DNA of 35,541 nt, taken from assembly GCA_902793695.1 (NCBI GenBank), contig CADBEI010000019.1:1-35541 (forward strand), given 5' to 3'. The position numbers and the translations under genes are program-made. Of this stretch, positions 20,380-24,145 are shown piece after piece (positions within the stretch are counted from its first letter, which is position 1; every line of letters begins with the position of its first letter). The notes beneath the pieces are model-generated. The model worked only from the letters and a program-made list of their open reading frames with translations. It was not told the origin of the DNA and made no database searches. This DNA comes from an uncultured Pseudomonadota bacterium. Lineage in GTDB: Bacteria > Pseudomonadota > Alphaproteobacteria > RF32 > CAG-239.

Positions 20380-21159
20380 TCATACCGCCAAAGCCGGCGC
20401 CATCTGCTTGTGCTTGAACTCCGAGCGACGAATTAAAGCGTCCACCCGCTCGACCAACTCCTTATCATAACCGGCCGTCACCGCTTCCGCTGCCGACTTT
20501 TTATCATCATAAAGCAACTTCAACACCTCATCCAAAACCACATACGGCGGCAATGAATCCTCATCTTTTTGCCCTGCTGCAAGTTCTGCCGACGGCGCCC
20601 GCGTGATTACCGCTTCCGGCAAAGCGTATCCTAAAGTATTGCGCCATTTGGCCAATGCGAAAATCGTGGTTTTATATACGTTACCTATCGGCATTAAACC
20701 GCCGCAAGTGTCACCATAGAGCGTACAATATCCGGTCAATGCCTCCGATTTGTTGCCGCAAGCCAACACCAACCCGCCGTTTTGGTTAGACCACGCCATT
20801 AACAGCTGTCCGCGAATACGCGCCTGCAGATTTTCTGCCGTAATACCGTGCACGGGAGCCTTAAAAGCCTGCGCTAAAAAGCCGATTTCCGCATTAACCA
20901 ACGGTTCAATATCCAACTCATGATAATCAAGATGGTTGAGCTTAGCCGTTTCGCGAGCAATTTGCAGACTCAAATCAGATGTATATTGAGTTTTCATCAT
21001 AATCGCCGTAACATTTTCGCCACCTAAAACATCTGCCGCCAACACCGCGGTCAGCGCCGAATCCAGCCCGCCGGAAAGTCCGAGAATTACTTTATTAAAG
21101 CCGTTTTCGTCGCAATATTGCCGCAAGCCGCTTTGCAATTTATGCCAAAGTTTTTCCAT
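20380..21159 (-). CDS. nadE: NH3-dependent NAD synthetase (NadE)
   Basis: 259 residues, a single-domain, ammonia-using NadE without the glutaminase domain. Converts nicotinate adenine dinucleotide to NAD. The PP-loop is VILGLSGGLDSALTAVLAAD (about 24-43). Other landmarks are MKTQYTSDLSL, the GITAENLQARIRGQLLMAWS helix, CGNKSEALTGYCTLYGD and the acceptor loop region ITRAPSAELAAGQKDEDSLP. It is the last gene of the operon; GGGGAGA precedes the ATG, 3 bases after pncB. Product of the last step of the pathway begun by pncA. Confidence 0.94.
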   Translation of the reverse strand: MEKLWHKLQSGLRQYCDENGFNKVILGLSGGLDSALTAVLAADVLGGENVTAIMMKTQYTSDLSLQIARETAKLNHLDYHELDIEPLVNAEIGFLAQAFKAPVHGITAENLQARIRGQLLMAWSNQNGGLVLACGNKSEALTGYCTLYGDTCGGLMPIGNVYKTTIFALAKWRNTLGYALPEAVITRAPSAELAAGQKDEDSLPPYVVLDEVLKLLYDDKKSAAEAVTAGYDKELVERVDALIRRSEFKHKQMAPALAV

Positions 21160-21162
21160 AGT

Positions 21163-22656
21163 TTATCTCCCCGACTGCGCATTCAAAATCAGCATTTGTC
21201 GTGTGTTATACAGATTCGTTTCCAATCCCACGCCGTAAATATGCGGATTGGCCAACCGCTTGTATGACTCGTCAAGCCGTGCCAAATTAGCCTTGCCGCG
21301 TTGCTGCAGTTTTTGCAAATTCAACTCCGGCGGATTGATTACCTTGCCGTTTTGCATCACCGGTTGCAACAACAAATACGCCTGTTCTCCGGCTTTGAAA
21401 TCACGTTTTAAGCCGTTTATGCTATCAAGAGTGTATGAGGTAATATTGCGTGATAATTTACCGTCTTGCACCAAATCCGTATCGGCCGCACCGCAGATAA
21501 TATCGCCCTCAAACTTATCTTTGCGTATGATTCGCACCACATTGGTCGCCCCCGGAATGGTAGTTTTTCCTTCGGCGATTTTAATGCACGGACGTCCCAT
21601 ATATTGCTTGGTTTTAAACACTCCGCCCAATGCCGGAGTATCATAAGCCGTAACCAACTTGGTACCCGCCGCCAAAACATCATACGGCGCCTTTTGCACT
21701 ATCAGCAGATTTTCTATCAGGTGTTCATCCAAGTCATTGGAAGCCACCATTTTTACATTGGCAAACAGCGGATTATCGCCTTCGGCATCTATCATTTTGC
21801 GCGCTTCCTTCGCCCAATATGCCAAATCGCCGGAATCCACCCGCATTCCCATCAGCGGCAAACCGACTTCCTTAGTTGCTTCAATGGCATGCTTAATTCC
21901 CTCGCGCGTATCATAAGTATCGACCAATAGCGTGGTATTCCCCGGATTGCCGCGCATAAAAGCCTTAAAAGCGTCGACTTCTTTTTCATAGCTCATCACA
22001 AAAGAGTGCGCCATAGTACCGGAATCCGGAATCCCGTAATGTTTGGCCGCCGCGGTGTTGGAAGTGCCGGTTGCACCGCCGATAAACGCCGCTCTGGTTT
22101 CGGAAAATCCGCCCATCTCATGCCCGCGTCTTAAGCCGAATTCCAAAAGCGGACGTTGTTTGCCGTCCAAAGAAGCAGCATATATCATACGCGATGCCTT
22201 GGTTGCCACCAAACTCTGCGAATTAAACGCGTTTAACAAGGCCGCTTCCACCAAATCAACCTGCCAAGTCGGACCGGTTACGGAATACACCGGCTCGTTC
22301 GGAAACACCAATTCTCCTTCCGGCACCGCGTTAATACTGATCTGCAGTTTTTTGTCTTTGATAAATTCCAGAAAACGCTTATCAAAACGCGCACTGCCGT
22401 CGGCATTTTTTTCTTGACGCAAATATGCAATATCGTCTTCGGTAAAGTGCCAATTTTCCAGCCATTGCACAAATTCGCCCAAGCCGGCACACATCAAATA
22501 ACTGCCGCCGAACGGATTTTTCCGAAAGAACGCTTCCGAAGTTTTGATTTCTTCGGCCTTACCGTCCAAAAACCACGCTTGCGCCATGGTTAAATGATAT
22601 AAATCGCAAAACAACGGGGTTCCGCTTTCCAAAATATTCGGTCTGGTATTTGTCAT
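21163..22656 (-). CDS. pncB: Nicotinate phosphoribosyltransferase (PncB)
   Basis: 497 residues, the longer bacterial/eukaryotic NAPRT type. Joins nicotinate and PRPP to nicotinate mononucleotide, driven by ATP. Visible: LFCDLYHLTMAQAWFLDGK (about 15-33), FRKNPFGGSYLMCAGLGEF, EFGLRRGHEMGGFSETRAAF, GGATGTSNTAAAKHYGIPD, GTMAHSFVMSY, LLVDTYDTREGI, GMRVDSGDLAYWAKEARKM and VASNDLDE. These are the full set of family blocks. Gap to pncA is 2 bases and to nadE 3 bases; AGGAG precedes the start. Acts in the cytoplasm between PncA and the adenylyltransferase. Confidence 0.94.
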   Translation of the reverse strand: MTNTRPNILESGTPLFCDLYHLTMAQAWFLDGKAEEIKTSEAFFRKNPFGGSYLMCAGLGEFVQWLENWHFTEDDIAYLRQEKNADGSARFDKRFLEFIKDKKLQISINAVPEGELVFPNEPVYSVTGPTWQVDLVEAALLNAFNSQSLVATKASRMIYAASLDGKQRPLLEFGLRRGHEMGGFSETRAAFIGGATGTSNTAAAKHYGIPDSGTMAHSFVMSYEKEVDAFKAFMRGNPGNTTLLVDTYDTREGIKHAIEATKEVGLPLMGMRVDSGDLAYWAKEARKMIDAEGDNPLFANVKMVASNDLDEHLIENLLIVQKAPYDVLAAGTKLVTAYDTPALGGVFKTKQYMGRPCIKIAEGKTTIPGATNVVRIIRKDKFEGDIICGAADTDLVQDGKLSRNITSYTLDSINGLKRDFKAGEQAYLLLQPVMQNGKVINPPELNLQKLQQRGKANLARLDESYKRLANPHIYGVGLETNLYNTRQMLILNAQSGR

Positions 22657-22658
22657 GG

Positions 22659-23282
22659 CTATTCTCCTAAACTTTTATGAACTAAATTGTGTTGAACTTT
22701 TTTATTATGCAATTCTTTGCGGAAAAATTGCGCTGTCGTAATCCGTCGCAGATAACCTGCCTCAATAAACGGCTGATAAACCTCTTTTTGCAAAATATCG
22801 CTGATTTGCTCTTGCGCTCCTTGGCACAAATCCTCAATAATCGTCACTTGCGCACCGTGTTTTAAGAGCCCGTTTAAGGCCTGTTTGACGCACACATCAC
22901 TCAAAACGCCGCACAAATAAACGTTAGTATCACCCCAATCCTGTTGCAAAGTGCGATATTGTTTCAACTCGTTCCAAATATTGGTGGTGGATTTATACAT
23001 TTTTTCAACCGCCAAATCCGGCTTAAACGGCGCCGCCTGCTGCCACCCCCAAGTGCCTTGCACACAATGCGGCGGAAAGCTGTCGGATTCCGAGGTGTTG
23101 CCGTAAGTTTCGGCAAAATGCGTGTCATAAGTATCGATAATTTTATCAAAACTGCCGTCAAACAGCGCATCGGCAAATTTTTGATGTTTTGTGATAAGTT
23201 CCGGTGCATTCAGACTGAGCGCGCCGTGCGGATGCACAAAATCGTTTTGAAAATCTATCCGCATTAAAATATTTTGAGTCAT
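22659..23282 (-). CDS. pncA: Nicotinamidase (PncA, isochorismatase-like fold)
   Basis: 207 residues. Hydrolyses nicotinamide to nicotinate and ammonia. The catalytic triad fits Asp10 (MRIDFQNDF), a Lys in AVEKMYKS (Lys94 or Lys97) and Cys131 in CGVLSDVCVKQAL. Metal ligands fit Asp53 and His55 in TYDTHF and His72 in FPPHC. Family isochorismatase proteins can have other substrates, but the neighbours pncB, nadE and an NMN adenylyltransferase make nicotinamidase nearly certain. AAGGA lies before the ATG. The 84-base gap from nadM contains a strong hairpin. Confidence 0.9.
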   Translation of the reverse strand: MTQNILMRIDFQNDFVHPHGALSLNAPELITKHQKFADALFDGSFDKIIDTYDTHFAETYGNTSESDSFPPHCVQGTWGWQQAAPFKPDLAVEKMYKSTTNIWNELKQYRTLQQDWGDTNVYLCGVLSDVCVKQALNGLLKHGAQVTIIEDLCQGAQEQISDILQKEVYQPFIEAGYLRRITTAQFFRKELHNKKVQHNLVHKSLGE

Positions 23283-23317
23283 AATTTCCTTCCCTTCAGG
23301 CTTATCAGGTTAAAATC

Positions 23318-23352
23318 GTCTGTCTCGCATAAGCCCCGCGCAAGACGCAGAC
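23318..23352 (-). promoter_or_regulatory. Intercistronic hairpin before pncA
   Basis: Minus-strand arms GTCTG-CG-TCTTGC and GCGAGACAGAC pair over 11 bp with a 2-base bulge and a loop containing GGGGCTTAT. The core TCTTGC-x3-GGGCTTAT resembles the hairpin in the leader of nadM. It may protect or process the mRNA, or be a second copy of a regulatory motif. No T-run follows, so it is not a terminator. Confidence 0.55.
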
Positions 23353-23366
23353 ATATTGAAAAACGG

Positions 23367-23909
23367 CTAAACAATACCTTTTTTCTTATTAAAATGTTCT
23401 TCCACCAGATGATGATTTTCCGGCGCCACAAAATTTTTCCAACGCTTGTCGCCGAATTTAATCATATCGCGCACCATAGTACCGGTCACAAACGGAAAAT
23501 TCGGGTCGGTACGATCTACCAACACAATGTGTTTGAAATGGTCTTTAAACCAATGCGCATCATATTCCGAACCGGCATAATATGCATCAGGCAGCGGCAA
23601 ATACGGCAAACTTTCTCCGAGAAAATCCACCACAAAATCGCCCCACTCCGCCGGATTATTGATATCAAACAACCCGATGATTTTGAGTCGCTCATATTCC
23701 GGCTTATCACGATATATATTCTGAATCATCTTTTTGCGAGTGGTATAATTGAGCGGATTGCGTGCCGTGCCCTGCTCTTGAATTGAGCCGAGAGCAATCG
23801 TTACCAGTTCACATTCTTGCAGCATTTGGTCAATGATTTTTTGGTGCCCGATATGAAACGGCTGGGCGCGCATAATGCAAAAACCGTGCTTATACTTGTA
23901 TTTAGTCAT
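23367..23909 (-). CDS. nadM: Nicotinamide/nicotinate-nucleotide adenylyltransferase, NadM-like
   Basis: 180 residues. The ATG at 23909 has AAAGGAG upstream; the in-frame ATG at 23960 would put the hairpin arms into coding sequence and lacks a ribosome-binding site. The nucleotidyltransferase motif FCIMRAQPFHIGHQKIID (about 10-27) carries the (H/T)xGH signature. VTIALGSIQEQGTARNPL (36-53), YTTRKKMI and the C-terminal FVTGTMVRDMI (the ISSTxxR-like position) complete it. It would adenylate nicotinate mononucleotide to the dinucleotide used by NadE, and perhaps NMN directly. NadD is the usual bacterial enzyme for this step; this NadM-type protein in the operon makes the route self-sufficient. First gene of the operon. 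Confidence 0.85.
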   Translation of the reverse strand: MTKYKYKHGFCIMRAQPFHIGHQKIIDQMLQECELVTIALGSIQEQGTARNPLNYTTRKKMIQNIYRDKPEYERLKIIGLFDINNPAEWGDFVVDFLGESLPYLPLPDAYYAGSEYDAHWFKDHFKHIVLVDRTDPNFPFVTGTMVRDMIKFGDKRWKNFVAPENHHLVEEHFNKKKGIV

Positions 23910-24023
23910 AAAAAAAAACTCCTTTAAACAGGAGCCGTCAACAAAACAAAATATTTTCATCTCATTAAACCGGCTCGGTTTTATATTGTTCCCTGCTTAT
24001 AAGCCCTGCAAGCACCGAGAACA
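23910..24023 (-). promoter_or_regulatory. Structured leader of the NAD-salvage operon, candidate translational switch
   Basis: In the leader RNA, AGGAG of the ribosome-binding site (23923-23919) pairs with CTCCT (23934-23930), closing a 5-bp hairpin over it. A competing 6-bp pairing, GAGCCG (23976-23971) with CGGCTC (23937-23932), would take part of that anti-ribosome-site strand and free the site. GAGCCG is itself contested by a local hairpin AAACCG / CGGTTT (23981-23967) and by CTCGGT (24019-24014) with ACCGAG (23979-23974). A further hairpin at 24022-23988 holds TGCTTGCAGGGCTTATAAGC. Mutually exclusive pairings ending at a masked ribosome site are the layout of a translational riboswitch, or of protein-controlled attenuation. 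No known class is recognised. Confidence 0.45.
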
Positions 24024-24056
24024 ATTATACGATAGTTCAGAAAATAAAAATGTCAA
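24024..24056 (-). promoter_or_regulatory. Putative promoter of the NAD-salvage operon
   Basis: Perfect TTGACA (24056-24051) and perfect TATAAT (24029-24024) on the minus strand, but 21 bases apart. A weaker TATCGT lies 16 bases from the -35 box. The overlong spacer may mean activator dependence or use of the second -10 box. Confidence 0.45.
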
Positions 24057-24091
24057 GATTTTTTTCCATTGTTTAAAAATCAACTCTTAAC

Positions 24092-24128
24092 AAAAAACAC
24101 CCGTCGGTTTTACCCGTCGGATGTTTTT
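24092..24128 (-). terminator. Rho-independent terminator after the lipoprotein gene
   Basis: Minus-strand stem AAAAACA-CCG-CGG with two mismatches pairs across TAAAAC and is followed by TTTTTTG. It separates the lipoprotein gene from the NAD-operon promoter. Confidence 0.7.
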
Positions 24129-24145
24129 ATGCTCATACAAAAAAT

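Follow-up and report, generated by a model that had tools for sequence, protein, structure and literature searches.

The mRNA leader of an NAD salvage operon in an uncultured alphaproteobacterium carries a conserved RNA with two mutually exclusive folds, and a second copy of this RNA precedes the second gene of the same operon. The RNA is likely a new class of metabolite-sensing riboswitch outside Rfam, used twice to turn NAD salvage off and with NAD+ or NMN as its likeliest ligand, although ligand binding and the off direction are inferred. Comparison of relatives supports the association with NAD genes, hairpins HP1, HP2 and HP3, the kissing helix between loops and the long alternative hairpin; for a conserved RNA switch with two states, this is nearly as strong a case as comparative evidence can make. 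The window (the whole stretch of DNA analysed, 35,541 nucleotides) contains the operon nadM-pncA-pncB-nadE on the minus strand, the genes lying in this order downstream of the leader. The features are as follows.

24029-24056, minus strand: predicted promoter, TTGACA (24056-24051), 16 nt spacer and TATCGT (24034-24029), 10/12 matches
24022-23910, minus strand: nadM leader RNA, copy 1, conserved and covarying
23988-24022, minus strand: copy 1 HP1, matched by model R2 at 1.6e-12
24022-24018/23992-23988 and 24014-24010/23998-23994, minus strand: helices P1 and P2, respectively, of copy 1 HP1
24017-24016, minus strand: bulge of copy 1 HP1, two bases, the second always G
24009-23999, minus strand: loop of copy 1 HP1, 11 nt, GCAGGGCUUAU
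24001-24005, minus strand: copy 1 kissing strand GGCUU in the HP1 loop, complementary to GAGCC, in 43-44 of 44 leaders
23967-23981, minus strand: copy 1 HP2, stem 23981-23978/23970-23967, with GAGCC (23976-23972) in the loop
23932-23976, minus strand: anti-sequestor/antiterminator, GAGCCG (23976-23971) with CGGCUC (23937-23932)
23917-23936, minus strand: HP3, GGCUCCU (23936-23930) with AGGAGUU (23923-23917), masking the Shine-Dalgarno AGGAG (23923-23919)
23910-23918, minus strand: U9 tract between HP3 and the nadM ATG (23909)
23367-23909, minus strand: nadM-like nucleotidyltransferase (NMN/NaMN adenylyltransferase), first gene of the operon, PF01467
23318-23352, minus strand: copy 2 HP1, with P1, bulge CG, P2 and loop GCGGGGCUUAU, matched by model R2 at 5.0e-11
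23329-23335, minus strand: copy 2 kissing strand GGCUUAU in the loop, 7-bp complement of 23305-23299
23293-23309, minus strand: copy 2 HP2, CCU (23309-23307) with AGG (23295-23293), loop AUAAGCC (23305-23299)
22659-23282, minus strand: pncA-like nicotinamidase (isochorismatase family), PF00857, with a weak NCBIfam nicotinamidase match
21163-22656, minus strand: pncB, nicotinate phosphoribosyltransferase, TIGR01513 at 447.6 bits, above cut-off
20380-21159, minus strand: nadE, NAD synthase, PF02540 and TIGR00552, both above cut-off

The top NCBIfam matches of the nadM-like gene are nicotinamide-nucleotide adenylyltransferases, all under their cut-offs. Its predicted promoter abuts HP1 and the predicted transcription start, at about 24022, is the first base of that hairpin, so that all arms of the leader would be transcribed. 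Where the box is readable in relatives, the distance from TTGAC to HP1 is mostly the same to within 1-2 bases. Immediately upstream of the promoter, at 24085-24130, is a strong inverted repeat with T runs (ACATCCGACGGG...CCGACGGGTGTTTTTT), likely the terminator of a lipoprotein-like gene (24574-24146). An in-frame ATG at 23960 (minus strand, 23960-23367) could lengthen nadM across the leader (MKIFCFVDGSCLKEFFF...); this start is not kept in the relatives read and is regarded as incidental.

Within the leader, 14 pairs (23968-23955 with 23951-23938) add to those of the anti-sequestor to give a 20-bp hairpin (-16.1 kcal/mol, z -5.0), which is mutually exclusive with HP2, the kissing helix and HP3. 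The GGCUC of the anti-sequestor shares bases with CUCCU, which closes AGGAG. HP3 itself has 7 bp, including two G-U pairs (-9.1 kcal/mol, z -2.2), and was terminator-like in a scan. At least 6 U were present immediately 3' of the Shine-Dalgarno in 51/51 leaders, with 6-9 U following HP3. HP3 has the make-up of an intrinsic terminator, a stem containing GC with a U tract immediately after it. Termination itself is inferred, and for a terminator the HP3 stem is short.

The second copy (23352-23293, minus strand) was found with a covariance model, R1, built from copy 1 leaders, which matched the gap between nadM and pncA at 23302-23355. The two copies differ in stem sequence but share the bulge G and the GMAGGGCUUAU loop. 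The HP2 stem of copy 2 overlies the pncA Shine-Dalgarno AGGGAAGG (23295-23288), and in relatives the CCY arm matches the RGG arm, pncA ribosome site included. In an alignment of 32 second copies from relatives 97.2% of cells were paired, and the spacers were mixed A/T in contrast to the U tracts of copy 1. Copy 2 occurs only where pncA is the next gene (25/25 readable cases), being present where pncA follows at approximately 90 bases and absent where pncB or nadE follows nadM, where pncA lies within 35 bases of nadM or, at one locus (L024), where it lies at 77 bases.

The evidence for these structures comes from relatives in the same family, where a nadM locus was identified in 70 of the 126 genomes and the copy 1 motif at 53 of the 70 loci (51 by pattern, with L018 and the divergent L071 added by reading). 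Across 44 aligned leaders 95.6% of cells pair, against 25-53% in slid controls, and there were 12 double-change pairs compared with 6.9 after shuffling. For HP1, a joint alignment of both copies (54 sequences) had 97.3% of cells paired versus 71.5% when shuffled and 208 double-change cells versus 59.9, with 11/11 pairs changing on both sides. The loop bases outside the kissing pairing are nearly invariant, resembling a ligand pocket. The HP2 hairpin was seen in some register, with at least 3-4 of its pairs, in 44/44 aligned leaders; it has two registers and several compensated pair types (AAAC/GUUU, AACC/GGUU, AACU/AGUU, UAACC/GGUUA and others), and five leaders have it only with a mismatch. 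Kissing loops pair with their own partners better than with the partners of others (permutation p 0.00018), the pair types including GGCUU/GAGCC, GGCUA/UAGCC, GGCUUAU/AUAAGCC, GGCCUA/UAGGCC and GACAGU/ACUGUC. This helix is nearly invariant in the main group and its covariation support therefore rests on few divergent copies. The pairs read were GGCUA/UAGCC and GGCCU/AGGCC in L103, GGCCUA/UAGGCC in L032, CCUAU/AUAGG in L005, and GACAGU/ACUGUC together with GGGCAA/UUGGCC (one mismatch, copy 1) in L071. The arms of HP3 are likewise compensated in divergent copies, as CCUUUC/GAAAGG in L071 and CUUUC/GAAAG in L103. The ends of the anti-sequestor pair in 47/47 leaders tested, as the base of one long hairpin that varies from 38 to 114 bases across leaders and whose interior, the linker, has a mean z of -2.35.

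As a separate observation, the linker of the alternative hairpin is longer by about 40-140 bases in leaders L028, L037, L040, L042-L045, L047 and L048. These enlarged linkers hold a related insert (TTTATTTGCACACGCTATCTAAATTTATC), possibly a small mobile repeat, and the hairpin still closes where tested.

An earlier note on this DNA, made from sequence alone, had proposed a switch RNA with nested exclusive pairings before the NAD operon and belonging to neither known NAD class, and this proposal is supported. Two of its pairings held exactly: the 5-bp hairpin closing the ribosome-binding site (23919-23923 with 23930-23934, CUCCU/AGGAG) is the core of the 7-bp HP3, and the competing 6-bp pairing (23932-23937 with 23971-23976) is the base of the 20-bp hairpin (23976-23932). 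Its claim that the partner strand is contested by two further pairings held in part. One contestant, HP2, is real, and a loop-loop pairing added in the follow-up (23976-23972 with 24005-24001) is conserved and covaries. A reconstructed extra pairing, CUCGGU/ACCGAG (approximately 24019-24014 with 23979-23974), is not conserved, pairing in 64% of cells without double changes, and is considered incidental. Lack of conservation or covariation in relatives was to have refuted the proposal and was not borne out, the leader being conserved with strong covariation; a transcription start inside 23910-23970 would also have refuted it, and the promoter predicted here precedes every arm, which is a sequence prediction only. 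The second copy before pncA and the terminator-like U tract had been missed. That the RNA senses NAD, nicotinamide or a nucleotide is still an inference from gene context.

Switching was supported by fold modelling. In copy 1, the probability that AGGAG is unpaired fell from 0.35 to 0.02 when both kissing loops were blocked, compared with 0.35 (unchanged) when loop 1 alone was blocked and 0.24 when loop 1 was blocked together with random linker bases. In copy 2 the effect of blocking on the ribosome site was small (0.37 to 0.30, kissing energy excluded), and this half of the model is therefore less certain. Of the criteria for a riboswitch, a conserved domain with covarying structure is present in the 5' mRNA region, and mutually exclusive folds tied to the aptamer are present in copy 1 and more weakly supported in copy 2.

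In the mechanism proposed, the aptamer would consist of HP1 and HP2 joined by the loop-loop (kissing) helix. With ligand scarce, the HP2 loop of copy 1 would pair with CGGCUC to form the long hairpin, preventing HP3 and leaving the nadM ribosome site open. With ligand plentiful, the kissing complex would keep GAGCC to itself and CUCCU would close AGGAG as HP3, which with the U tract would stop transcription and by its stem would mask the nadM ribosome site. The kissing complex of copy 2 would steady the HP2 stem over the pncA ribosome site, so that pncA would also be turned down, at the level of translation alone. Copy 1 is thus inferred to be both terminator and ribosome-site mask and copy 2 to act on translation only; a terminator role suits copy 1 because it sits at the start of the operon. 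There are no binding or expression data for this RNA, and ligand binding, the identity of the ligand, the off direction and the choice between termination and an effect on translation only are all inferred.

The assignment of a ligand depends on gene context. Every credible copy is at NAD salvage genes, either at nadM or at the gene after it, and none was found at other pathways; the expectation for an NAD-sensing RNA, association with genes of NAD synthesis or salvage, is thereby met by position only, and control itself is inferred. No match was found when NadA or QRPTase was searched for in the genome of the window, and salvage is therefore probably its only route to NAD, making end-product feedback plausible, again by inference. 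In a divergent genome, G066, both copies are in a nadM operon in which pnuC replaces pncA and pncB. Here nadM is followed by a 173-aa ORF, a PnuC transporter (PF04973, 129 bits) and a nucleoside deoxyribosyltransferase-like gene (locus L180, 1360-3669, minus strand), and no pncA, pncB or nadE was found in the stretch read after nadM. Gene content suggests that this operon places a nicotinamide-riboside route beneath the same RNA. Since NAD+, and less surely NMN, is common to both operon layouts, G066 points to one of these two. Our best guess, from gene context and without binding data, is NAD+, the product common to all operons found, with NMN next. At another locus (L033) the gene 3' of nadM resembles, by eye only, an inorganic pyrophosphatase, which would remove the pyrophosphate made by NadM.

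Rfam, the search of which the earlier note had proposed, gave no gathering-score match in the window, and at E up to 10 the leader had no plausible match; six divergent relatives were also without a match. Taken alone, this result does not rule out the NAD+-II class. No nadM or pncA RNA motif is described in the open-access literature searched (subscription papers and supplements were outside its scope), and only two NAD riboswitch classes were found there, both taxonomically narrow and the first of disputed ligand specificity (PMC10043782, PMC10702441). The NAD+-II class (pnuC motif) is built from P1, P1a, an A5 strand and a pseudoknot that overlaps the ribosome site, and was first reported from Streptococcus only (PMC7749635, PMC10085692). 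Like it, the new RNA is a short element, inferred to be off-type, before an NAD salvage gene, and long-range pairing would control the ribosome site; one divergent genome here also has pnuC. In contrast to NAD+-II, the new RNA lacks the P1/P1a/pseudoknot topology, and its long-range helix forms between the loops of two hairpins, with the ribosome site outside it. The NAD+-I class (nadA motif) is found in Acidobacteria, where the nadA leader holds a tandem pair of bulged stem-loops and the second of these contains the ribosome site (PMC10702441, PMC7749635). The new RNA similarly uses bulged stem-loops twice before NAD genes, with an inferred off direction, but each of its copies has a separate HP2 and stands before a different gene of the same operon, and the CAACAUCCCCGU-type core (PMC10702441) is absent from both by inspection. 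One aptamer in two copies per operon is also a property of tandem riboswitches (reviewed in PMC9481103), from which the present copies differ in being approximately 670 bases apart, before different genes and with different expression platforms. The preQ1 and SAM-II riboswitches are small pseudoknot riboswitches. In these a small aptamer is closed by long-range pairing, as here; the new RNA differs in lacking an Rfam match and in having a loop-loop helix between two hairpins instead of an H-type pseudoknot.

On balance we lean, without great confidence, towards a third NAD+ (or NMN) riboswitch class with a kissing-hairpin aptamer used twice, as terminator and mask first and as mask only second. 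NAD is among the commonest of cofactors, and a third unrelated fold, if confirmed, would show repeated origin of RNA sensing for it. HP1 with HP2 is compact enough to be prepared and assayed readily, and the operon itself supplies two copies whose inferred outputs differ, allowing a direct comparison of the way one aptamer drives termination and translation.

Among the alternatives, a protein-controlled leader is unlikely. Here NadM, PncA or another RNA-binding protein would bind HP1/HP2 and impose the same two exclusive folds as operon feedback. Two copies adjoining the first two genes of the operon would suit autoregulation, nearly invariant loop bases would also suit protein contacts, and NadM homologues and the RNA co-occur in the class, close homologues being present in exactly the four RNA-carrying genomes of the class sample. 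Against this, more distant NadM homologues (55-63% identity) in the same family are without the RNA, and in our judgement the kissing helix and nearly invariant bulge G resemble a compact aptamer more than they do any known protein operator. A riboswitch for a proxy ligand outside the NAD pathway, such as ATP, ADP or another adenine nucleotide, is also improbable; NAD+-I riboswitches do not discriminate against ATP (PMC10702441), hence context does not fix the ligand, but all credible copies are at nadM or the next gene with no other pathways found. A constitutive 5' UTR structure acting on stability, start-site masking or as a thermosensor, with neither ligand nor protein, is very unlikely, for while the hairpins would form regardless and no binding has been shown, a static structure does not need two exclusive folds conserved together, and HP1 is strongly constrained and reused at pncA.

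The riboswitch interpretation remains preferred, for an RNA of narrow distribution. Model R1, run against 385 class genomes and 398 phylum genomes, gave matches only in the family and in one genome of a second alphaproteobacterial family (G156), which carries both copies; confinement to two families implies a shallow history. None was found in the viral contigs searched. The carriers probably belong to the gut order named RF32 in GTDB. When 84,980 species genomes were scanned for the pattern without regard to gene context, 45 stretches were returned, of which 38 pass model R1; most of these have record titles of uncultured Alphaproteobacteria, and rumen and gut are frequent sources. The other 7, from Pleurocapsales, Lentisphaerae, Aquamicrobium, Sedimentisphaerales, Limnohabitans, Streptococcus sanguinis and Candidimonas, had no model score and are taken as chance. 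Weak class-level R2 matches were likewise attributed to chance, L158 and L159 overlapping unrelated long ORFs and L160 and L161 being partial or without a full P1, and a weak match in G094 was rejected, having no R2 match and no nearby NAD gene. One record titled Lactobacillaceae bacterium (L141, JAISVX010000003.1) has the RNA together with an alphaproteobacterial-type nadM, and its title looks wrong.
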